Assembly (NCBI RefSeq): GCF_900182935.1
Contig: NZ_FXUE01000001.1
Coordinates: forward strand, 682,001-746,000
Origin: Fibrobacter sp. UWB10
Lineage (GTDB): Bacteria > Fibrobacterota > Fibrobacteria > Fibrobacterales > Fibrobacteraceae
Length of the DNA: 64,000 nucleotides
Direction: 5' to 3'
Shown: positions 33,353 to 46,320 of the stretch, piece after piece
How positions within the stretch are numbered: position 1 is the first letter of the stretch
Layout: each line of letters opens with the position of its first letter
Position numbers and translations under genes: made by a program
Notes under the pieces: generated by a model
The model's input: only the letters and a program-made list of their open reading frames with translations
Told to the model about the DNA's origin: nothing
The model's database searches: none

Positions 33353-34915
33353 TTAATCGTCTTCTTTTTTCACCGGGTTATAGGGCTTATCAAGCGAATT
33401 GAGCTTGACATGGATTTCTACAATAGCAGTATGTTCTTCAACATCCGGAGCCACCCCAATGGTATATCGAATCATATATCCCGCAATAGCACGAATCTTA
33501 TCCGAATCAAACTCATACGCCTCCCCAACAAACATGGTATCAAGCCAGACCACATAATGAACGTTCGAATATCGAGGATCGTCCCACTCATCGCCATCCC
33601 ACAATCCAGCATCATGTATCAATACGCTTCGTGCTTCATATAAATCATCCAAATTAAACTCAACCTTAAAGGCATCCTCGTCCATCAAATATTCTTCTGA
33701 ATTCGTTTTTTCATCTCCTCGAACAATCACCCCTTGGCAACATTTATCCAAGGTTTCCGGAGTCTTTTCTTCTAGAACATAATGGTAAATAATGTCATGA
33801 AGTTCCTGCCATTCCTTCGTATGGCCGGGCGTTTTCGAAGACAATTCATCCTTTTCAGGATCATAGAACGCCTCGGCATAGGCTTCTACATATTTTTCAA
33901 ATTCGGGAACCGATTCCGTGTATTCCCATCCGGCAATATTTTTGCGAATTGTTTCCAATTGGCCGTTTTCTTTGGCTGAATGAGCCCAATTGGCAATTTT
34001 TGTTTTCATTTCAGCATTCCACTCGCCCGTTTTGACATAAGATTTACTTAACGAGTCTACACTATAAGTAAGATGCGCATTCTTTTCGGATTCCGTCTGC
34101 GCCGTCAGGAGCACACTCGCCGCCAAAAGGGCTGCGTTGCCTTCCCCAGGTTTAAGGATATCCAGGTCTGCAAAATCACCGACATCTTCTTTAATGTCGA
34201 ACAGTGCAAGGATTTCCTTTTTCGCAAGAGCCCTTGCTTCCGCTACAGGCATTTTCTTTTCATCCACAAGATACCTTACGCGATCATATTCGAGCTGCGT
34301 AAACACGTTGATATTCACGGTACTGCGATTTTCCAAATTAACAAAGGCGTGCAGCAATACTTCTTTCTTCGACTTTACCCCAGTATGTTCATCTAGATAA
34401 TAACCCTTCACATCGATTTCAGCACACGGAGAAGCCATGTTAAGATTTTCAACATTGTACACTCCGTTTTCCATCTCAATACGAGCATACCCAGACTCTT
34501 CGGCATCGCTCTTTCTTCTTAATGTTTCGCAATCGAGTTCAACCAAAAATGCGTAAGAATCAATAAACGGTCCCTTCTGTGCTACACCAGTCAACGTCTT
34601 ATTCTTGATGGCATAATTTTCAGAACTCGAAGATTCTACCCTTGTTGTATCAGAAGATCCATTTTTTTCCGAGCTTGAAGATACGACCTTTTCAGAACTC
34701 GAGGACTTAGCCTTCTTGTCCTTGTGGGCAACCGAAGACGAAGAAACACCTTCGTCGCCGCCGGATTCCACGTCCTCGATATATTCTTCCGAATCTCCCC
34801 CAGCGACACTGCTGTTGTCGCTAGAACAACCCGTCGTCATCAGGGCCACACCAATGCACATTGCCGACGCAGACAGCAAGCCGGCACTAAAAAATTTTTG
34901 GAGTTTGTTTTTCAT
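33353..34915 (-). CDS. QKGPF-family lipoprotein, last gene of a four-lipoprotein operon
   Basis: 520 residues. The lipobox MTTGC gives Cys30. Residues about 31-100 are a Ser/Glu/Lys linker with SSSSE blocks. LTGVAQKGPF (about 105) opens a beta-rich domain shared by six proteins in this window, ending around VNINVFTQLEYDRVRYLV. A helical domain follows (KKEILALFDIKEDVGDFADL, GNAALLAASVLLTAQ, ETIRKNIAG, PEFEKYVEAYAEAF). The C-terminal about 145 residues (KEWQELHDIIYHYVLEE, LWDGDEWDDPRYSNVHYVVWLDTM) recur in the next two genes. The ATG at 34915 keeps GAAGG 6 bases upstream; the ATG two codons earlier touches it. Probably surface-exposed; function unknown. Confidence 0.8.
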   Translation of the reverse strand: MKNKLQKFFSAGLLSASAMCIGVALMTTGCSSDNSSVAGGDSEEYIEDVESGGDEGVSSSSVAHKDKKAKSSSSEKVVSSSSEKNGSSDTTRVESSSSENYAIKNKTLTGVAQKGPFIDSYAFLVELDCETLRRKSDAEESGYARIEMENGVYNVENLNMASPCAEIDVKGYYLDEHTGVKSKKEVLLHAFVNLENRSTVNINVFTQLEYDRVRYLVDEKKMPVAEARALAKKEILALFDIKEDVGDFADLDILKPGEGNAALLAASVLLTAQTESEKNAHLTYSVDSLSKSYVKTGEWNAEMKTKIANWAHSAKENGQLETIRKNIAGWEYTESVPEFEKYVEAYAEAFYDPEKDELSSKTPGHTKEWQELHDIIYHYVLEEKTPETLDKCCQGVIVRGDEKTNSEEYLMDEDAFKVEFNLDDLYEARSVLIHDAGLWDGDEWDDPRYSNVHYVVWLDTMFVGEAYEFDSDKIRAIAGYMIRYTIGVAPDVEEHTAIVEIHVKLNSLDKPYNPVKKEDD

Positions 34916-34988
34916 TTTCATCCCTTCTTTGTTTGAATGTTTGTATCAACGGCCATCAGTTCAGCTTCAAACCAATAGCGGATTGTCC

Positions 34989-36524
34989 TTACTCTTCTTT
35001 TTTCGGGGGAATGTAAGGCTTACCATCCCTATTGGTTTTAACCGCCACTATTAAATAAATCTCCTGTCCTACTGCATCCGCCCCCTCTCCCAAAGTGAAA
35101 CGGACTTTGTACCCCAAATGCATATCACCATTTCCAAAGAGTAGGGTATCCATCCAAACCTCATAATGAACACCGGGGTAACGTTCGTCGTCCCATTCAT
35201 CGCCATCCCATACAAGGCCATCTTCAATCAGCCGACGTTGCAACGCTTCCTCGCCTTCGTGATCGTACATTTCGTGATACAATTTTTTGTCCATCAAATA
35301 TTCGCCAGCATTCGTTTCTTCATCATCCCGATACACCCGAGAATCTTCCTTTAAGGTTTCCGGAGTATTTTCTTCTAGAACAAAATGGTAAATCACGTCA
35401 TGAAGTTCCTGCCATTCCTTCGTATGGGCGGGCGTTTCCGAAGACGATTTATCCTTTTCAGGATCATAGAACGCTTCGGCATAAGTTTCTACATATTTTT
35501 CAAAATCCGGAACTTCATCCGTATATTTTGCGACATTCTTGCGAACCTTTTCCAACAGGTCCTTTTCTTTGGCGGAATGAGCCCAATTGGCAATATCGGT
35601 TTTGATTTCGTCATCCCATACGCCAGTCTCCACAAAACTTTCTTTCATATCGTCCACACGATAAATCAAATGCGCATTCTTTTCAAGATCCGTCTGTGCC
35701 GTCAGGAGCACACTCGCCGCCAAAAGTGCTGCGTTGCCATCACCAGGTTTAAGGATATTCAGGTCTACGAAATCACTGACTCCGTCTTTGACGCCAAACG
35801 CAGCCAGAACTTCTTTTTTCGCCTGTTCTTTTGCCTTTACCACAGTCATTCCCTTTTGACTTACAAGATATTTCATGCGTTTGTATTCAAGTTCCGTGAA
35901 TACGTTGATGTTCACGGCATCATGTTCGGTCAGATTCACAAACGCTTCAAGTTCAACCTCCTTCTTTGATTTTTCGCCAGCATGCTCATCCAGGTAATGG
36001 CCTCTAACCCAAATTATAGCACAAGGAGTAGAAAAGCTGATATCTTCGATTTTGTATTCGCCATTGTCGCTTTGTATATCTACACTTCGAGTGAATTCGT
36101 CTACCCATTTCAGAGTATTACAATCAACTTCTGCCATCCAAACCGAACCATCAACGAACGGGCCTTTCTGCGCCACGCCAGTCAAAGTCTTATTCTTGAT
36201 TGCGTATTGTTTTTCTTCGACACTAGAAGAATCTGCTTTTTCGGAGCTTGAAGATTCCACCCTTGTTGTATCAGATGATCCATTATTTTCCGAGCTTGAA
36301 GATTCGATTTTCTCGTTCTTTTCAGAGCTCGAGGACTTCGCCTTTTTATCTTTGCTTGCAACCGAAGACGAAGAAGCACCCTCGTCGCCACCGGATTCCA
36401 CGTCCTCGATATATTCTTCCGAGTCATCCCCGGCAACACTGCTGCTTTCGCTGGAGCAGCCCGTTACCACCAGAGCCATACTGACGGCTGCCAACGCCGT
36501 GATTTTTCCAAGTTTATTTTTCAT
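34989..36524 (-). CDS. QKGPF-family lipoprotein
   Basis: 511 residues, paralogous along its whole length to the gene at 33353. It has lipobox VVTGC, an SSSSE-rich linker with blocks almost identical at DNA level to its neighbour, LTGVAQKGPFVDGSVWMAEVD, VNINVFTELEYKRMKYLV, the helical domain (GNAALLAASVLLTAQ, PDFEKYVETYAEAF), and the C-terminal domain KEWQELHDVIYHFVLEE ... LVWDGDEWDDERYPGVHYEVWMDT. The C-terminal halves have diverged more than the N-terminal ones. GAAGG lies 6 bases before the ATG. It sits 26 bases after the stop of the preceding gene. Confidence 0.8.
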   Translation of the reverse strand: MKNKLGKITALAAVSMALVVTGCSSESSSVAGDDSEEYIEDVESGGDEGASSSSVASKDKKAKSSSSEKNEKIESSSSENNGSSDTTRVESSSSEKADSSSVEEKQYAIKNKTLTGVAQKGPFVDGSVWMAEVDCNTLKWVDEFTRSVDIQSDNGEYKIEDISFSTPCAIIWVRGHYLDEHAGEKSKKEVELEAFVNLTEHDAVNINVFTELEYKRMKYLVSQKGMTVVKAKEQAKKEVLAAFGVKDGVSDFVDLNILKPGDGNAALLAASVLLTAQTDLEKNAHLIYRVDDMKESFVETGVWDDEIKTDIANWAHSAKEKDLLEKVRKNVAKYTDEVPDFEKYVETYAEAFYDPEKDKSSSETPAHTKEWQELHDVIYHFVLEENTPETLKEDSRVYRDDEETNAGEYLMDKKLYHEMYDHEGEEALQRRLIEDGLVWDGDEWDDERYPGVHYEVWMDTLLFGNGDMHLGYKVRFTLGEGADAVGQEIYLIVAVKTNRDGKPYIPPKKEE

Positions 36525-36550: not shown

Positions 36551-37438
36551 TTAATCCTGTTTTGCCCTATACCTTACCGGGATCCATATTGAAACATTTC
36601 CTTCAAGACCCAGAGATTGACAAAAATATCTAACATTGTATGTTGCTTCAATTTCGGCGAAACTCACTGGCCAACTCCAATGCACAAGTATGGAGTCCAA
36701 TTCCGCTTTAAAACGGCATTCCGGTTTATTGAGATTAGTCCAATTAAAGCCTTCCCATAGAATACCATCTTCATAAAGCCTATCCGTCAAATGCTGATCA
36801 TATCCATCATATTGATATTCGGCAACGAATTCGTCTTCAGGCATTCTATATTCATCAAGCCTCGAACTTTTATCGGAACGTTCCACTTTCAAAAATCGAG
36901 ATTCATGCAAATCTTGAATTGAATTATTCTCCACTACGGACGTAACAGAATCTCTGATGATTTCCCATTCCTTTGCATTGTTCAGTTCAACCGGTTCGGG
37001 CTCAGCAGATTCAATCGGTTCGATTTTTTCTTCAGAGTTTGAAGGTTCAGCTTGTTCAGTTTTTTCTTCTGAGGGTTCTGTGGTTTCAGCCGGATCTGTC
37101 TTTTCTTCAGGTTCAGCTTTGTTCGGTTCAGTAGGTTCTTCAGGTGCGGCAACATCGCCAGATTCAGCCGGTTCTTCGGATTCAGCAGGCTTTTCAGATT
37201 CAACGGTTTCTTCGGGACTCGAAGGTTCTTCAGCCTTCGAGGCTTCTTCGGTGTCAGCAGTCTCAACAACTTCTTTTTTCGACGTTTCTTCGGACTTTGA
37301 GGATTCCTCCGTATCGCCCCCGGCAACACTGCTGCTGTCGCTACTAGAACAGCCTGTCACCATTAGAGAGGTGCAGAAGAACATCGTTGAAACAGACAGC
37401 AGACCCGCCCCAAGAACTTCATACCATTTGTTTTTCAT
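36551..37438 (-). CDS. Short lipoprotein paralogue lacking the QKGPF and helical domains
   Basis: 295 residues. The lipobox MVTGC is followed by an unusually long acidic Glu/Pro/Ser/Thr linker (about 35-155, with SEEPAESGD and EPEEKTDPAETTEP type repeats). The remaining about 140 residues (AKEWEIIRDSVTSVVENNS to WEGFNWTNLNKPECRFKAELDSILVHW) correspond to the C-terminal domain of the two downstream paralogues. So the middle modules were lost here or never present. The frame also allows TTG at 37444, but the ATG at 37438 has AAGGAAGG upstream and matches the paralogues' MKNK start. Confidence 0.75.
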   Translation of the reverse strand: MKNKWYEVLGAGLLSVSTMFFCTSLMVTGCSSSDSSSVAGGDTEESSKSEETSKKEVVETADTEEASKAEEPSSPEETVESEKPAESEEPAESGDVAAPEEPTEPNKAEPEEKTDPAETTEPSEEKTEQAEPSNSEEKIEPIESAEPEPVELNNAKEWEIIRDSVTSVVENNSIQDLHESRFLKVERSDKSSRLDEYRMPEDEFVAEYQYDGYDQHLTDRLYEDGILWEGFNWTNLNKPECRFKAELDSILVHWSWPVSFAEIEATYNVRYFCQSLGLEGNVSIWIPVRYRAKQD

Positions 37439-37440
37439 TT

Positions 37441-38421
37441 TCAACCTTCCTTATTGGAGTCTTTATTCAAATGTTTTTCACGATCCTCAGCCCAGTAGTA
37501 GGCTTCCAATTCCATCGTGAACCCGTAACGGATAGTGCGGTTTCCATTTTCGTCCACAAGAACTTCTGTTAACGGATAAGCGATTATTATATAATAAACA
37601 TCATCTGTTTTCGATCTAAATGTATACGTCCTTTTTTTCGCCCCTTCCAATTCCGACGCATCACAATTGACATTTTGATAATCTTCATCCATCACGTCTT
37701 CATAAACGTACTCTGAATTAAAAGTCCTCTTATCAAGATAATCGCGTTTAAACATTTCCAAGCTATCGGCGCCCCAATCATATTCTTCACGCGAAAGAGC
37801 GTAGACTTCAGAAGCCGGAGCGATATCCGTTTGCGATGTATGATGAATTGTCCAACGGACAATAGAACTGTCGTTACTGCATTTCACAAATTTGTGCTTA
37901 TCATTTTCTCCACAGCCTTCCAGGTATTCGAACTCTTCAGGGAAAGGCTTTTCAGAGCAATCGGCAAACCTTTTTTCTGTGTTCGTTTCGGAACTGGAAG
38001 ATTCCACCCTTGTCGTATCAGGGAATCCGTTGTTTTCAGAGCTCGAAGACTCAAAGACTTCAGAGTTGGAAGATTCGGCCGGTTCGGAACTCGTAGGTTC
38101 CACCTTTTCGGAGCTTGAAGATTCCTCGGTTTTCGAGACCTCTTCCGAACTCGAAGAAACCTTCTTTTCAGAACTCGATGACTCGACCTTTTCGCTCTTT
38201 TTAGAGCCAGATTTTTCCGAGCCGGACTTTTCGGAACTGGAAGACACGTCGATTTTCTCGTCGCTATTGGATTCCACGACTTCGGAATATTCTTCCGTAT
38301 CGCCCCCCATTACGCTGCTGTTGTCGCTAGAACAGCCCGTTGCCATCAACGCGACGCTGATATAGGCCGTCGACATCATGAACAGGCCTGCGCTAAAGAT
38401 TTTTCCAAGTTTGTCTTTCAT
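37441..38421 (-). CDS. Lipoprotein with long SSSSE linker, first gene of the operon
   Basis: 326 residues. The lipobox MATGC is followed by about 120 residues of Ser/Glu/Lys repeats (SEKSGSEKSGSKKSEK, SSSSEKVEPTSSEPAESS). The folded part, about 150 residues, starts at FPEEFEYLEGCGEND and ends TIRYGFTMELEAYYWAEDRE. It is the same C-terminal domain as in the lipoproteins at 38669 and 41471. The gene lacks the QKGPF and helical domains. AAGGAAAAA precedes the ATG, and TATATTTG lies 43 bases upstream. The stop codon is 2 bases from the ATG of the next gene, so the four lipoproteins from 38421 to 33353 are probably co-transcribed. Confidence 0.75.
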   Translation of the reverse strand: MKDKLGKIFSAGLFMMSTAYISVALMATGCSSDNSSVMGGDTEEYSEVVESNSDEKIDVSSSSEKSGSEKSGSKKSEKVESSSSEKKVSSSSEEVSKTEESSSSEKVEPTSSEPAESSNSEVFESSSSENNGFPDTTRVESSSSETNTEKRFADCSEKPFPEEFEYLEGCGENDKHKFVKCSNDSSIVRWTIHHTSQTDIAPASEVYALSREEYDWGADSLEMFKRDYLDKRTFNSEYVYEDVMDEDYQNVNCDASELEGAKKRTYTFRSKTDDVYYIIIAYPLTEVLVDENGNRTIRYGFTMELEAYYWAEDREKHLNKDSNKEG

Positions 38422-38464
38422 TTTTTCCTTCTTTGTTGGAGTGTTTTCGCATCCCTCACATCTA

Positions 38465-38472
38465 CAAATATA
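38465..38472 (-). promoter_or_regulatory. TATATTTG promoter element of the four-lipoprotein operon
   Basis: Minus-strand TATATTTG, 43 bases upstream of the ATG at 38421. A proximal GGAACACA (38491-38498) and the conserved string AAAATTAGCGTTTTT follow 18-25 bases further upstream. Confidence 0.6.
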
Positions 38473-38560
38473 GCCTTATTCAACAGATTTGGAACACAAA
38501 ATTAGCGTTTTTCTTTAAATTTTACGCTTTTTAAAGATTTTACTAAAATTTAAGCAAATT

Positions 38561-38589
38561 GGAATACAAGTTGTGTATTCCTAGAACAC
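38561..38589. promoter_or_regulatory. Operator-like inverted repeat GGAATACA-N5-TGTATTCC
   Basis: A perfect 8-base inverted repeat (38561-38568 and 38574-38581) is followed by a degenerate third half-site (GAACACA). It lies 88 bases upstream of the TATATTTG element. The half-site is identical to the one in front of the regulator gene at 40425-41288. Confidence 0.6.
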
Positions 38590-38605
38590 AGCGAAAATCA
38601 CGCCG

Positions 38606-38643
38606 TAAAAAAAGAAAAGGCCTCGCAAAATTGCGAGACCTTT
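38606..38643 (-). terminator. Intrinsic terminator of the lipoprotein gene at 38669
   Basis: AAGGCCTCGCA and TGCGAGACCTT form the stem around AAAT, with a T-rich run on the minus strand. Confidence 0.85.
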
Positions 38644-38668
38644 CTGCTTTTGTTAGGGTAGAAGTCCT

Positions 38669-40435
38669 TTACTTTGTCACATAAACAGCCGACAGCTCTA
38701 CAACAAACCCATAACGGATTGTCCGTGATCCACTTGGACGCACCAACAATTGCGGCACGGAGAATACGTAGACAAGATACGAAGCGTTCTTCAGATCCAT
38801 GCGGTAAGAATACACAGGTGTCGTTTCGCCAATCTCGCTCAAATCTTCTTCATCGTACGGGTAGTCATACAATTCGTTTCCTAAATCCACTATACTTTCA
38901 TCGTGTTCTTTACCAAATTCGAATCCAGAGCCTCTACCTAGCCACTCCGACCTGAAATGATCCAAGCTATCCGTCGAGTATTGTTCAAACTCCGCCGCAA
39001 AAGTATATGTCCTCGGAACAGAGAATTCCGTTTCGTAAACATCGTGACGCGTTCTCCAAGTCACGACTACGGAATCACCAGGGCAACGCGCTTCTGTAAT
39101 TTCATAGTCATTTCCAAGCAAGTAACTCAGTTCATGGGGGAATTCCGTGTTAGGACATCCCGAGGTATCTTTTTTTGTAACAGAGGAATCTTTCGCCGTA
39201 GTCGAAGTATCCGGCTTTACGGAACTCGTATCACGAACGGAAGAATCTCGTACAGAGGTATCGCGAACGGATGTGTCGCGAACGGACGAATCACGCGGCA
39301 TCACAGAACTCGAAGAGCGCAAGCTATCCTGCAACAGCGAATCACGGATAGAAGAGGAACTAGAAAGCAGGGAATCGCGTACAGAGGAACTCGAAGAAGT
39401 CGAATCAGCCTTTACTTCGCTGCTGCTAGAGGCCGCCGTGCTATCGCGCGAATCTTTGTTCGAAGAAGAGGAATCCACTTTTTCAACCGAGTCCTGCTCG
39501 ACAGAAGAAGAGGAGACTGTTTCTTCAAGCGAATCCCGCTCAGCGGACGAAGAGCTTTCTTCGATGGAGTCAGCGGGTTCTACAACAGGAATGTACTTTT
39601 CGAATGCGGGAATTTCGTCAACGTAATCCAGGCCTTCGATATTCTTGCGGATTGTTTCAAGTTCACCGTTTGCCGAAGCTTCGGTTACCCATTCTGCAAT
39701 AGCCTTTTTCGTTTCAGAGTCTTTCCACTTACCGGTTTCGGCAAAGGAATCGTCAAACTTATCAAGGCGCTTGGCAAGTGCGGCCGCATCAGCGTCGCCC
39801 TGCATCATCACGCTTACAGCCAAGAGCGCGGCATTACCGTCACCCGATTCAAATACATTCAGGTTTTCGAATTCGTCAAATTCGCCCTTGATATCGAAGG
39901 CGGCAAGGACTTCCTTTTCGGCCTGCGTTTTAGCCTTGGCCAGAGCCTTGCTCTTTTCCTTCACAAGGAACATCACGCGTTCGTATTCCAAACTGGTGAG
40001 CACGTTGACGTTCACGTTTTCGCGATCCTTGAGGTTGGTCAGCGCACGGAGAGTCACTTCATCCTTCGTCTTTTTGCCCGTGACTTCGTTCAGGTACTTA
40101 CCCGTGACTTCGATGACCGCGCAAGACGCATCGAGAGCAACGCTATCGAGAGCAAAGTCGCCCTTATCGCTCTTGATTGTTCCTTCAAAAACCTGATCCG
40201 TGAATTCCAGCGTCTTACAATCGACACCGCGAACCGTTACCGCAGAGCCCTTCACGAACGGGCCCTTCTGGGCAACGCCCGCCACATCGGCTACAAAGCC
40301 GGCATCTTCCGAAACGCCGCCTGCGACGCCTTTTTCTTCTTCAGTAGAGCATGCGGCAAGCAACACCGACATACCCATAATTGCAGAAACAACGGCCAAG
40401 CCTTTCTTGGTCGTTCTACGCAAGTTATTCTTCAT
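38669..40435 (-). CDS. QKGPF-family lipoprotein paired with a TIGR02147 regulator
   Basis: 588 residues. The lipobox LLAAC gives Cys29. The QKGPF domain starts early (VAGVAQKGPFVKGSAVTVRG, about 52) and runs to VNVNVLTSLEYERVMFLV. The helical domain (EKEVLAAFDIKGEF, GDGNAALLAVSVMMQ, ETIRKNIEGL, PAFEKYIP) follows. In this protein the Ser-rich linker comes after these domains (about 290-420) and includes tandem SVRDT repeats. The C-terminal domain FPHELSYLLGNDYE to TIRYGFVVELSAVYV matches that of 37441-38421. The ATG lies inside the end of the regulator gene (11-base overlap), with AAGGAG in the regulator's last codons, so translation is coupled. Confidence 0.82.
   Translation of the reverse strand: MKNNLRRTTKKGLAVVSAIMGMSVLLAACSTEEEKGVAGGVSEDAGFVADVAGVAQKGPFVKGSAVTVRGVDCKTLEFTDQVFEGTIKSDKGDFALDSVALDASCAVIEVTGKYLNEVTGKKTKDEVTLRALTNLKDRENVNVNVLTSLEYERVMFLVKEKSKALAKAKTQAEKEVLAAFDIKGEFDEFENLNVFESGDGNAALLAVSVMMQGDADAAALAKRLDKFDDSFAETGKWKDSETKKAIAEWVTEASANGELETIRKNIEGLDYVDEIPAFEKYIPVVEPADSIEESSSSAERDSLEETVSSSSVEQDSVEKVDSSSSNKDSRDSTAASSSSEVKADSTSSSSSVRDSLLSSSSSIRDSLLQDSLRSSSSVMPRDSSVRDTSVRDTSVRDSSVRDTSSVKPDTSTTAKDSSVTKKDTSGCPNTEFPHELSYLLGNDYEITEARCPGDSVVVTWRTRHDVYETEFSVPRTYTFAAEFEQYSTDSLDHFRSEWLGRGSGFEFGKEHDESIVDLGNELYDYPYDEEDLSEIGETTPVYSYRMDLKNASYLVYVFSVPQLLVRPSGSRTIRYGFVVELSAVYVTK
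39231..39290 (-). repeat. Four 15-base tandem repeats encoding SVRDT/S
   Basis: On the plus strand the units begin tcacgaacgg, tctcgtacag, tcgcgaacgg and tcgcgaacgg, each 15 bases long. They encode the pentapeptide repeats in the linker of the lipoprotein at 38669-40435. Their multiple of three would change linker length without a frameshift. Confidence 0.7.
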
Positions 40436-41288
40436 GATCTCCTTCCTTTTCGGGCGTACCCTTGTCGTCTTTCTTTAAACATTCACTCATCGGGAACAGT
40501 TGCAAGTTCAAACGGTACACTTGTTCCGTATCGTCGTCTTCAGTGACAATGGCCATAATGCGGCGACGGCAATCAGCAAGTTCTTTTCTAATGCGTTCGT
40601 AGGCGCGGCGCGTAATTCCCATGGTAAGGCCCGACATGTCGCGTTCCGAAAGCGGCAAGCTCAGCGCCTTGACGGCGAATTCGGCCATCTGGCGTTGCAA
40701 ATCGCGAGCAGCCACCGGCACGGCATCGACAGAGCCCATCGAAATCGCCTTATCCGTCTGGTGGTAATTCCCGTCTTTGTCCTTTTTCAGGAGCTTGGCG
40801 CGCACCAAGAAGTCGAGCGTCTGGGAGACCTCGGCTGCGGTAATCGGTTGCTTGCAGGCTTTGGCCATTTCAAGCGGCTTTGCGCCCGGCATATGCGGTG
40901 CCAATTCACGCAGCACCACATTTTTCCATGATTTAAAATACTTGAACTCTTCATCCCCCAGCACACGTACCTTGTGAGCATTCGCAAGCGCACAGCGTTC
41001 TTCGAACGCGGCTCGTTTTGCCGCATCGCCCTTCGCATGTGCGTATGAAACCATCAGCACAAAGTACGTGTGTTCAAACCCGACCAACCCCATAGCACTC
41101 GCTACGGAACCTGCAGCCCCTACGCTCAGGTTTTTCTTCCCCTCGCAGACATACTTCAGATAAACCGCCGACGAAAACCCTGCGTCGCGCGCAAAATCTC
41201 GCCAGGTAAACGCAGAAGTACGCTTACGTTCATCGTAGTAGTCCTGGATGAACTTGCGGTAATCTGTGTATTCTACTATCTCCTTCAT
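40425..41288 (-). CDS. TIGR02147 / DUF4423 family transcriptional regulator
   Basis: 287 residues. The N-terminus MKEIVEYTDYRKFIQDYYDERK is the family hallmark. TWRDFARDAGFSSAVYLKYVCEGKKNLSVGAAGSVASAMGL (about 24-66) looks like a helix-turn-helix. The remaining DUF4423 region (YFKSWKNVVLRELAPHMPGAKPLEMAKAC, LDFLVRAKLLKKDKDGNYHQTD) resembles a winged-helix plus sensor part. The family was defined on paralogues in Fibrobacter succinogenes and is predicted to regulate transcription. TATATTTG ends 5 bases before the ATG and there is no Shine-Dalgarno sequence. The 3' end overlaps the lipoprotein gene. The inverted repeat upstream suggests autoregulation. Confidence 0.9.
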   Translation of the reverse strand: MKEIVEYTDYRKFIQDYYDERKRTSAFTWRDFARDAGFSSAVYLKYVCEGKKNLSVGAAGSVASAMGLVGFEHTYFVLMVSYAHAKGDAAKRAAFEERCALANAHKVRVLGDEEFKYFKSWKNVVLRELAPHMPGAKPLEMAKACKQPITAAEVSQTLDFLVRAKLLKKDKDGNYHQTDKAISMGSVDAVPVAARDLQRQMAEFAVKALSLPLSERDMSGLTMGITRRAYERIRKELADCRRRIMAIVTEDDDTEQVYRLNLQLFPMSECLKKDDKGTPEKEGDHEE

Positions 41289-41293
41289 GAGTA

Positions 41294-41301
41294 CAAATAT
41301 A
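41294..41301 (-). promoter_or_regulatory. TATATTTG promoter element of the regulator at 40425
   Basis: Minus-strand TATATTTG followed by TACTC and the ATG; a leaderless or nearly leaderless mRNA is implied. Confidence 0.6.
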
Positions 41302-41390
41302 GACTAATTTCATTGTTTTGGGATACAAATATGTCATTTTCGCAAAAATTTTACTATTTCCTCGAATTTTTCAAAATTTCAGCATTTTTG

Positions 41391-41418
41391 GGAATACAAC
41401 CTGTATTCCAGGAATACA
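41391..41418. promoter_or_regulatory. Operator-like triple site GGAATACA / TGTATTCC / GGAATACA
   Basis: GGAATACA (41391-41398) and TGTATTCC (41402-41409) form a perfect inverted repeat with a 3-base spacer. A further exact GGAATACA follows after 1 base (41411-41418). The group lies 89 bases upstream of the TATATTTG element. A half-site GGATACA is also found close to the promoter at 41321-41327. Confidence 0.65.
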
Positions 41419-43458: not shown

Positions 43459-44316
43459 TCATTTTCTCTGCCCCTTTTTTAAAACTGTTTCCTTTTCGGT
43501 TTTCAAATGTTCACTCAACGGGAACAACTGCACGTTCAGGCGGTAGACCTGTTCCGTTTCGTCTTCCTCCGTCGCAATCGCCACCACGCGGCGGTAATAA
43601 TCTTCTGTCTCTTTTTTGATGCGTTCGTACGCACGACGCGTTAGTCCAAGCGTATAACCCGACATGACGCGTTCTGAAATCGGCAAGTCAATTGCCTTGA
43701 TGGCAAATTCACCCATCTGGCGCTGCAAATCGCGAGCGGCCAACGGCACAGCCTCCACCGGCGCCATTTTAATCGTCTTGTCCGTCTGTCGGTAATTTCC
43801 GTTCTTATCCTTTTTCAAAAGGTTCGCCTTCACCAAAAAATCGAGCGTTTCAGAAACTTCTGCAGCCGAAATCTTTTGTTTGCAGGCATGAGCAATCTCA
43901 AGCGGTTTTGCACCAGGCATGTGCGGCGCCAATTCGCGGATTACGGAATTTTTCCACGACTTAAAATACTTGAATTCTTCGTCCCCCAGCACACGCACCT
44001 TGTGAGCATTCGCCAGCGCGCAACGTTCTTCGAACGCAGCCTTTTTAGCTTCGTTGCTCTTTGCATGCGCATAAGAAACCATCAAGACAAAATAGTCATA
44101 CTCAAAGCCGACAAGGCCCATGGCATTCGCCACCGAGCCCGCCGACCCGACACTCAGATTCTTTTTCCCTTCGCAGACGTACTTCAAGTAGACATCTGAC
44201 GAAAAGCCCGCCTTCTGGGCGAAAGCGTGCCACGAAAAAGCGGAGCAGCGTTTGCGCTCATCGTAGTAGTCCTGAATGAACTTACGATAATCCGTGTATT
44301 CTATGATCTCCTTCAT
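43459..44316 (-). CDS. TIGR02147 / DUF4423 family transcriptional regulator
   Basis: 285 residues and a close paralogue of the regulator at 40425, with the same MKEIIEYTDYRKFIQDYYDERK start, helix-turn-helix-like region (FAQKAGFSSDVYLKYVCEGKKNLS) and KSWKNSVIRELAPHMPGAKPLEIA block. Most differences lie in the HTH region and in the C-terminal third, as expected if paralogues recognise different operators and signals. TATATTTG, TAGTC and ATG follow each other directly, again without a Shine-Dalgarno sequence. The lipoprotein gene starts 26 bases after the stop. Confidence 0.9.
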   Translation of the reverse strand: MKEIIEYTDYRKFIQDYYDERKRCSAFSWHAFAQKAGFSSDVYLKYVCEGKKNLSVGSAGSVANAMGLVGFEYDYFVLMVSYAHAKSNEAKKAAFEERCALANAHKVRVLGDEEFKYFKSWKNSVIRELAPHMPGAKPLEIAHACKQKISAAEVSETLDFLVKANLLKKDKNGNYRQTDKTIKMAPVEAVPLAARDLQRQMGEFAIKAIDLPISERVMSGYTLGLTRRAYERIKKETEDYYRRVVAIATEEDETEQVYRLNVQLFPLSEHLKTEKETVLKKGQRK

Positions 44317-44580: not shown

Positions 44581-46320
44581 TTAGTTCTTGACGCAACGCA
44601 CGCGGGCTTCTTTTAGCGGTTCGTATTCAACGCTATAACCACGAACAGATACTTGCACGTAAAAGTCACCAGCCAACTTCGGAAGAAGATAACTTTCAAT
44701 TTCTTCACGTTCTTCTTCATCATCAGTTAGTTCAAGAACAAGTTGCAAGAAAGCAATTTCGTCTTCATCCGGCACACTTATATGGTAAGAACCCGGTTTG
44801 TAAGAATGGTATTGGGCATGCAAATATACCGTATCCATCGGCATAAGGTTAAAATCAAACCTGTTGTAGAACACGCCGATCAAATCCTTTCCATAGGCCG
44901 CATCCAAATTAGAAGTTCTCCAATTTTCATTAAGCAGGTTTTTAACATCACCAACATAATCCACCAAGATATTCCATTCCCCGGGACTCGAGACATGCCA
45001 GCCATCGGGACAGATTCCCTGGTGTGTTTCACCAATCAAACTATCTTCAGCAGCTTCCGTCATGTACTTGTCATCGATTTGCATGGCTTCCGTCCAAGTA
45101 TAGAGTCCTTCGGAATCATACTTGAGATCTTCAGCCATCCATTCATACTTTTTCCCTTCGTATTCAAAGCTGATTGTCTGGTACTTATGTCCATCGCGCG
45201 GGTCAGTCATATTTCCCGTTTTGTGGTCAATTGGTATCTTGAGAGAATCGATATGTTCTTTTGTCGTCAAGTCCCAATAATACCCATTGCAAAGGAAGTA
45301 ACCCGATTCAATCAGTTCGCCTTCAAGTACCATGGCCTTATCGAACTTTCTGTATTCGCCCCAAAGGTCGGCAGTACAGAGTTCAAGATCCATATAATTC
45401 AAAAACAACAGGATGCCGAAATCGTATTCACTTTTCGAAAAACGCATACTAATCGCATCTGGATTAGCCTCGTCCTTTTTCTTGATATCGTCTTCACCAA
45501 CACCCTGCATTTTGCTCAATTTCCTTGCAGAGCTATAGCCCTCTCCGGCGAGATCCTGCATAATCGAATCAGCGAGAACACCATCATCGGCAAAATCATT
45601 GGCAAACCCATCGATGTAATCTTGCAATTTGGAGCAATCAATATCGTCATCAGCATTATACCAATCGCGCCAAGAATTCCATTCAGGCTGTTCATCGATA
45701 ATTCGGCTGATATTGTACAGAGTTCTGTCACCATCCGAAGAATTGTAGATATTCAAGTCTTCAGCAGAAGAAACATCGATCTTGACGCCGAACGCACCAA
45801 AAACTTCCTTTGCAGCTTGTTTTTTGGCTTCGGCAAAGGTCTTGCCCTCCTTGACCAAATTCAGCACACGCTTGAATTCAAAATGAGTCAAGAGGTTAAT
45901 GTTTACGGTTTCGCGTTTTTCCAAATTGGAAACAGCATCAAGGCGCATCGGGCAGCTAGAAACTTCACCCGTGTATTCTCGCTCGTAGTATCCTTCTGCG
46001 GAAAGAAGCGCATATTGGCTTTCCAAATCGATACCGTCAAACTTGAAATCGCCATCATCATTGGTTGTCTTGGTTGTAAATTCTCTGCCTGTGGGCTCAA
46101 GGCTTCCATCTGCCGACGTTTCTCTAAGGACAACATCCGAACCCTTCACGAAAGGCCCCTTCTGCACAGAACCACCAACTTTCTTACTAGCGAGCGCGAC
46201 AATGCCTTCGCTCTCTTCGCTGGTGCCTGCCGTTTCTGTGGAGCAGGCCGTCATCATCGCACCGAGCGCAAATGCCGTCCCAAGCCATTTTTTCACATTC
46301 AAATTACATTGTTCAAACAT
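44581..46320 (-). CDS. QKGPF-family lipoprotein with C-terminal FISUMP domain
   Basis: 579 residues. The lipobox MTAC gives Cys26. The QKGPF domain is VGGSVQKGPFVKGSDVVLRE to VNINLLTHFEFKRVLNLV. The helical domain is present at its start (AAKEVFGAFGVKIDVSSAEDLNIY) but has diverged further on. From MTDPRDGHKYQTISFEYEGKKYEWMAEDL to EARVRCVKN it is a FISUMP (TIGR02145) domain, replacing the C-terminal domain of its paralogues. It starts 2 bases after the stop of the regulator gene, with GGAG 7 bases before the ATG located in the regulator's last codons, so translation is probably coupled. Confidence 0.85.
   Translation of the reverse strand: MFEQCNLNVKKWLGTAFALGAMMTACSTETAGTSEESEGIVALASKKVGGSVQKGPFVKGSDVVLRETSADGSLEPTGREFTTKTTNDDGDFKFDGIDLESQYALLSAEGYYEREYTGEVSSCPMRLDAVSNLEKRETVNINLLTHFEFKRVLNLVKEGKTFAEAKKQAAKEVFGAFGVKIDVSSAEDLNIYNSSDGDRTLYNISRIIDEQPEWNSWRDWYNADDDIDCSKLQDYIDGFANDFADDGVLADSIMQDLAGEGYSSARKLSKMQGVGEDDIKKKDEANPDAISMRFSKSEYDFGILLFLNYMDLELCTADLWGEYRKFDKAMVLEGELIESGYFLCNGYYWDLTTKEHIDSLKIPIDHKTGNMTDPRDGHKYQTISFEYEGKKYEWMAEDLKYDSEGLYTWTEAMQIDDKYMTEAAEDSLIGETHQGICPDGWHVSSPGEWNILVDYVGDVKNLLNENWRTSNLDAAYGKDLIGVFYNRFDFNLMPMDTVYLHAQYHSYKPGSYHISVPDEDEIAFLQLVLELTDDEEEREEIESYLLPKLAGDFYVQVSVRGYSVEYEPLKEARVRCVKN

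Follow-up and report, generated by a model that had tools for sequence, protein, structure and literature searches.

The lambda cI, P22 and 434 operators are 17-bp palindromes with 8-bp half-sites, set in cooperative arrays and contacted by helix 3 and the beginning of helix 2. At araBAD, AraC uses half-sites in direct orientation, one of them overlapping the −35 box, together with an upstream DNA loop. We describe here a candidate system with features of both in a 64,000-nucleotide stretch of Fibrobacter sp. UWB10 (contig NZ_FXUE01000001.1, positions 682,001 to 746,000; the window, in whose numbering coordinates are given). A regulator of the TIGR02147/DUF4423 family encoded at 40425–41288 on the minus strand, here called the 40425 protein, probably reads an array of four half-sites (H1 to H4) both before its own operon and before a separate operon of four lipoprotein genes (38421–33353). 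Its nearest understood parallel appears, by analogy, to be the controller protein C.Esp1396I. That protein autoregulates from two sites ahead of its own operon, one a high-affinity distal site that recruits sigma and the other close to the promoter, and it has a third operator at a different gene (PMC4041747).

C proteins such as C.Esp1396I and C.AhdI resemble the predicted 40425 system in their XRE fold, in the distal and proximal sites at their own operon, and in the further operator elsewhere. They are, however, single-domain proteins with adjacent OL-OR sites on 35 bp, whereas the locus described here combines a second protein domain, four half-sites, a 70-bp phased linker and lipoprotein targets. 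Nor does the 40425 protein look like a restriction-modification controller, which would be a single XRE domain of ~80 aa accompanied by restriction and methylase genes: it has 287 aa, a second domain and a lipoprotein partner, and no restriction-modification genes lie in its operon. The 17-bp palindrome with 8-bp half-sites is shared with lambda cI, P22 and 434, but the lambda layout lacks the wide H3-H4 spacing and the lone half-site at the promoter. AraC would work in a similar mode on paper with an unrelated fold, and we claim no homology; the H3-H4 distance of 69–74 bp and the phased A-tracts would fit AraC-like looping.

The spaced repeat GGAATACA-N3/5-TGTATTCC is found exactly twice in the 3.48 Mb genome, at 41391–41409 and 38561–38581 (this and all other genome-wide searches were sequence-pattern searches). 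An earlier note on this DNA had reported a perfect inverted repeat there, and the letters match at both coordinates, as does the distance of 88–89 bases from the repeat to the promoter element TATATTTG (41294–41301 and 38465–38472, both minus strand); the genome scan proposed there yields no copy beyond the two promoters. The repeat appeared in none of 100 dinucleotide shuffles of the window. It had been taken for the operator, and in this the claim needs revision: the repeat is real but is only the H2/H3 part of a larger unit. Each promoter carries four copies of the 8-bp word TGTRTTCY, in which a forward H1 is followed after 1 bp by an inverted H2, after a further 3–5 bp by a forward H3, and 70–71 bp from H3 by a forward H4.

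In the regulator promoter H1 lies at 41411–41418 (minus strand, TGTATTCC; the array emerged from a blind scan), H2 at 41402–41409 (plus strand), H3 at 41391–41398 (minus strand, TGTATTCC, 3 bp from H2) and H4 at 41320–41327 (minus strand, TGTATCCC; GGGATACA when read on the plus strand), 71 bp from H3. The corresponding half-sites of the second promoter are H1 at 38583–38590 (minus strand, TGTGTTCT), H2 at 38574–38581 (plus strand), H3 at 38561–38568 (minus strand, TGTATTCC, 5 bp from H2) and H4 at 38491–38498 (minus strand, TGTGTTCC; plus strand GGAACACA). Counting from H1 at 38590, H3 comes 22 bp on, H4 70 bp further, and TATATTTG after another 18 bp. H1 and H4 are additional to the repeat first noted. 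H1 and H2 together form a 17-bp palindrome, TGTRTTCY-N-RGAAYACA, in each promoter, and in both H4 sits 18 bp before TATATTTG, at the expected −35 position. The H2/H3 spacers of 3 and 5 bp are inside the range found in relatives. Three distant paralogues (L014, L024, L025) lack H1 and keep the H2/H3 pair with a 3-bp spacer, so the H2/H3 register is a real unit too.

The linker between H3 and H4 contains a further element, GTAAAATTT, on the minus strand at 41346–41354 (consensus ATGGTAAAATtTg in 35 promoters) and at 38517–38525 (kept in 7/7 genomes). This element (GGTAAAATTTG) is conserved whatever the word, and is perhaps a shared-factor site or part of the DNA curvature. TATATT stands 13 nt before the ATG of the 40425 gene and in 34/34 promoters with a TATATT box (also L007 and L019); with so little room before the start codon, the regulator mRNAs are probably leaderless. 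The second operon, unlike the regulator mRNAs, has a leader of ~45 nt with a Shine-Dalgarno-like AAGGA. This leader (38422–38464, GTGAGGGATG..AAAACACTCCAACAAAGAAGG) is near-invariant in seven genomes, beyond the needs of a plain leader; it had no match elsewhere in the window, with a strict pattern that also misses the known site by one base.

Arrays of the word appear confined to these two promoters. The H3-H4 pair pattern TGTRTTCY-N59-67-TGTRTYCY has three matches in the genome, two of which are the promoters described here, and none in the reversed control; the third (C7:101960) looks like coding sequence, and related genomes contain near-identical copies of it. Allowing up to two mismatches, the 17-bp palindrome is found at 18 places. 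Of the others, seven were inspected in detail; all seven fall within coding frames or span them, with no promoter array among them. The pattern searches found no intergenic TGTRTTC array beyond these two in the genome. The exact repeat is not scattered at random through coding regions; such scatter would have counted against the proposal. In a blind four-half-site scan of the minus strand, the arrays at 41418 and 44448 rank first and second; the second promoter comes about eleventh, below GC-rich noise. Arrays of nine regulators (L007, L008, L010, L014, L015, L020, L021, L023, L024) outscore all 60 dinucleotide shuffles. Shuffles and other AT-rich stretches served as controls in these array scans, reversed sequence being unsuitable because the structure is symmetric. 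A simple repeated-word score separated promoters poorly, and the distance profile alone gives modest peaks at 92, 70–72 and 19–21 bp.

Both promoters are present in seven genomes (our own, G077, G079, G004, G040, G045 and G017; the relatives compared are mostly metagenome assemblies), always in the order regulator promoter, regulator, lipoprotein, second promoter, one to four lipoproteins and the same next gene. When both promoters are aligned over the seven, the half-sites, GTAAAATTT and CTATATTT stand out as conserved against otherwise variable sequence. Within a genome, the two promoters are 81–94% identical in H3+H4, 61–69% in the linker and 33–61% in the spacer from H4 to the box. The helix-turn-helix of the regulator (residues 27–56) is 100% identical among the seven, residues 1–85 are 99.4% identical and the C-terminal part 92%; in the 19 orthologues for which the arrangement was not found, the figures are 88%, 90% and 83%. 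Such identity would fit the extra constraint that a second target would impose.

A link between protein and word is seen at a single residue. Among 55 regulators with a clear array, Arg30 goes with TGTRTTC (36/36, one of them reading TWRRF) and His or Gln30 with CATGTTC (19/19), a strong association of the kind that the earlier note had proposed to look for between operator and helix-turn-helix residues. On a tree of the C-terminal domain the word class switched at least four times, with residue 30 in step each time. In distant paralogues, whose words were assigned partly by eye, TGT-initial words go with Arg, and TATTGTAA, TTATGATA and ATGTCRTA with Gln or, once, Pro. Residue 30 is placed at the N-terminus of helix 2 in an AlphaFold2 model, and in lambda-type repressors the start of helix 2 touches the operator. 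Asp41 is also frequent with CATGTTC; L138 and L063 have Ala41, and we place no weight on position 41.

The 40425 protein is a full-length member of TIGR02147, scoring 331.6 bits over residues 1–269 where the cut-off is 50, and matches DUF4423 with 99.3 bits (E 2.7e-28); the proteins encoded at 43459 and 46323 are likewise full-length members well over the cut-off. Its helix-turn-helix is predicted to have helix 2 at residues 29–36 and the recognition helix at 43–48. The AlphaFold2 model has a pLDDT of 90 overall and 97–98 in the N-terminal helix-turn-helix region. Foldseek matches the N-terminal domain to the helix-turn-helix domain of DdrO (6rnz; prob 1.00, TMt 0.73, root-mean-square deviation 1.7 over 61 columns, E-value 0.45) and also to C.AhdI and C.Esp1396I, and the best profile match to XRE regulators in PDB has an E of 0.0032. 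The N-terminal domain is accordingly predicted to resemble an XRE-type helix-turn-helix and to have the fold of that superfamily. TIGR02147 (Fsuc_second)/DUF4423 (PF14394) is a paralogue family with no assigned function, to which the 40425 protein adds candidates for an operator and targets. The literature searched gave no function, operator, target or mechanism for it; TIGR02147 appeared in no paper, and DUF4423 in a single passing mention, in Bdellovibrio.

The genome encodes 28 TIGR02147 regulators, and at least 25 of the 28 are followed within ~17 nt by a lipoprotein gene, often overlapping (L023 appears by eye to be a 26th); regulator plus lipoprotein is a genome-wide cassette (L003–L030). 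Of 61 genomes sampled across the phylum, 55 encode TIGR02147 proteins, often 20–34 apiece. The upstream regions of the 28 show a recurring layout, with a word that is repeated, often partly inverted, and found again near the promoter, and the words differ. It had been suggested that other regulator promoters share the layout with words of their own, and this holds for many of the 28 paralogues; the word GAACATGA cited for the neighbouring regulator is present in its promoter. When the genome was searched for the same layout with other words, it turned up at five regulator promoters and at three further places. For 40425 and its close relatives the order is strict (H1 forward, 1 bp, H2 inverted, 3–5 bp, H3 forward, H4 forward), with an H3-H4 distance of 69–74 bp (exactly 70 in 18/35) and an H4-to-TATATT distance of 16–19 bp (18 in 25 of 34 promoters). 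Among the genus loci examined, the AT-rich arrays that are not before a regulator all stand before lipoprotein genes.

Several arrays in other loci depart from the usual arrangement. That of L104 precedes a lipoprotein, with a regulator-like frame after the lipoprotein (L166:7297-10195), a reversed gene order. L165, L167 and L168 have lipoproteins with a DVTEVTNV motif and TGTRTTC pairs before a TTGACA promoter, with the conserved linker AAAGTGTGAAATAAATCATATTT; no regulator was seen within the examined stretch. At L164 the CATGTTC array is intact, yet the regulator has only 186 codons and seems to have lost part of its helix-turn-helix to a deletion (SWQEFA-AVFLKYV). At L043, L047 and L059, and likewise in G001, G047 and others, 4–6 kb downstream of the regulator there is a second TGTRTTC array, which apparently precedes another regulator, so that cross-talk between paralogues is possible.

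The H3-H4 linker is AT-rich, in related promoters as in 12 paralogues of the same genome, with A-tracts ~9.5–10 bp apart. Over the 12 paralogue linkers the phasing is ~9.7 bp, with a signal of 9.7; none of 500 dinucleotide shuffles exceeded 3.7, and other AT-rich stretches of the window reached 3.2. Since the A-tracts are phased and the H3-H4 distance is nearly constant at 70 bp, this suggests a curved linker that could bring H1-H3 dimers to H4 through a DNA loop. In the promoters of the 40425 subgroup the −35 consensus is absent and H4 takes its position; in paralogues with a TTGACT box, H4 is 6–7 bp upstream of the box. We infer a mechanism in which dimers of the 40425 protein would read TGTRTTCY and occupy the three clustered half-sites H1–H3 far upstream, and the curved linker of about seven turns would take the bound protein to H4 in the −35 region. 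The protein would thus switch its own operon (the regulator and the lipoprotein 38669–40435) and, via the identically built second promoter, the four-lipoprotein operon as well, in response to a signal presumably sensed by its C-terminal domain.

We observe the array and its geometry, find it restricted to two promoters and conserved in seven genomes, and see residue and word correlate. These observations support the earlier proposal that the 40425 protein acts on its own operon and also, in trans, on the lipoprotein operon. That seven related genomes keep the word pairing makes joint control very probable, and we consider it likely that 40425 is an XRE-type regulator that reads the TGTRTTCY array, loops, and switches both operons together. 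Several observations weigh against this. Some paralogues in the genome have no clear array, which means that not every family member has the layout, and some other genomes have two regulators with the same word class, so that word and regulator do not always pair one to one. There are only four independent word-switch pairs (sign test p 0.125), and with promoter and helix-turn-helix codons within ~250 bp, the correlated switches may have come from joint transfer of a block and not from co-evolution. The seven genomes are close relatives, so that their shared helix-turn-helix identity is partly due to kinship. At the second promoter the word class is constant, with no recorded change, and there is thus no co-variation in trans to observe. 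Finally, a whole-model Foldseek search of PDB structures gave no significant E-value.

The direction of control is less certain. We lean slightly toward activation, because every site is upstream of the core promoter and H4 stands, at a constant distance, in place of a recognizable −35 box. A somewhat less favored version of the same joint control is autorepression, in which distal dimers would loop to H4 and block the −35 region until an inducer frees both operons. Repression is common among XRE regulators, at the TATATTTG promoters H4 overlaps the −35 region, and in paralogues it lies 6–7 bp upstream of a good TTGACT box. However, no half-site lies within or beyond the core promoter, and the 16–19 bp from H4 to the −10 box, with no −35 box in the subgroup, suit an activator better.

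The second array could instead be a functionless relic, the promoter left after a duplicated regulator-lipoprotein module lost its regulator. The downstream lipoproteins are indeed homologous to the regulator's own, neighboring arrays of the same word class exist in other genomes, and the 61–69% linker identity between the two promoters exceeds the ~52% of shuffles. A relic should decay evenly, yet the four half-sites are kept in seven genomes even though H4-to-box spacers and gene content have diverged; duplication is a likely origin that leaves the retention unexplained, and we regard a relic as unlikely. It is about equally improbable that the array is read by something other than the 40425 protein, either another TIGR02147 paralogue or a general architectural protein. 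The 28 paralogues share a fold, and conservation of the word-independent GTAAAATTT means that a second, shared factor may act there, but among the promoters of the 28 regulators themselves, a TGTRTTC array was found only in that of 40425, and residue 30 tracks the word. Since the words differ between paralogues of one genome, no common architectural protein can be what reads the word. We rejected the reading of the inverted repeats as RNA hairpins or terminator parts of the upstream genes, which has very little to recommend it: both arrays do come directly after a GC-rich hairpin and T-run at which the upstream gene ends, but several relatives (e.g., L046, L047, L048) keep the array with no evident terminator directly in front, and neither an H4 placed 70 bp away nor the link to a helix-turn-helix residue has a place in it.

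The lipoproteins of the two operons, all encoded on the minus strand, are related by sequence comparison. The regulator's own lipoprotein gene (38669–40435) starts 11 nt inside the end of the regulator gene. In the target operon, the first lipoprotein (37441–38421) is 32% identical in its C-terminal half to the C-terminus of that lipoprotein, the second lies at 36551–37444, the third (34989–36524) has a central domain 46% identical to the regulator-operon lipoprotein, and the fourth (33353–34921) is 57% identical to the third. Given this relationship, the second promoter may date from a duplication of the whole module in which the copy of the regulator was lost. Elsewhere in the window, the lipoprotein that follows the 46323 regulator (44581–46320) carries a FISUMP (Fib_succ_major) domain.

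For the TIGR02147 family, the operator, the promoter architecture, the two-operon regulon proposed for one member and the residue-to-base correlation appear to be new, as read from sequence. We tentatively extend them to the genus, with somewhat less than even confidence: Fibrobacter may carry ~20–30 regulator-lipoprotein cassettes in parallel, in each of which a dedicated XRE domain would read a private operator word on a common loop-type promoter, which would allow independent switching of surface lipoproteins. Some cassettes would have a second, regulator-free operon, and the word would be predictable from the helix-turn-helix, starting with residue 30. On this view, a bank of separate switches would govern the lipoproteins of these plant-fiber-degrading gut bacteria.

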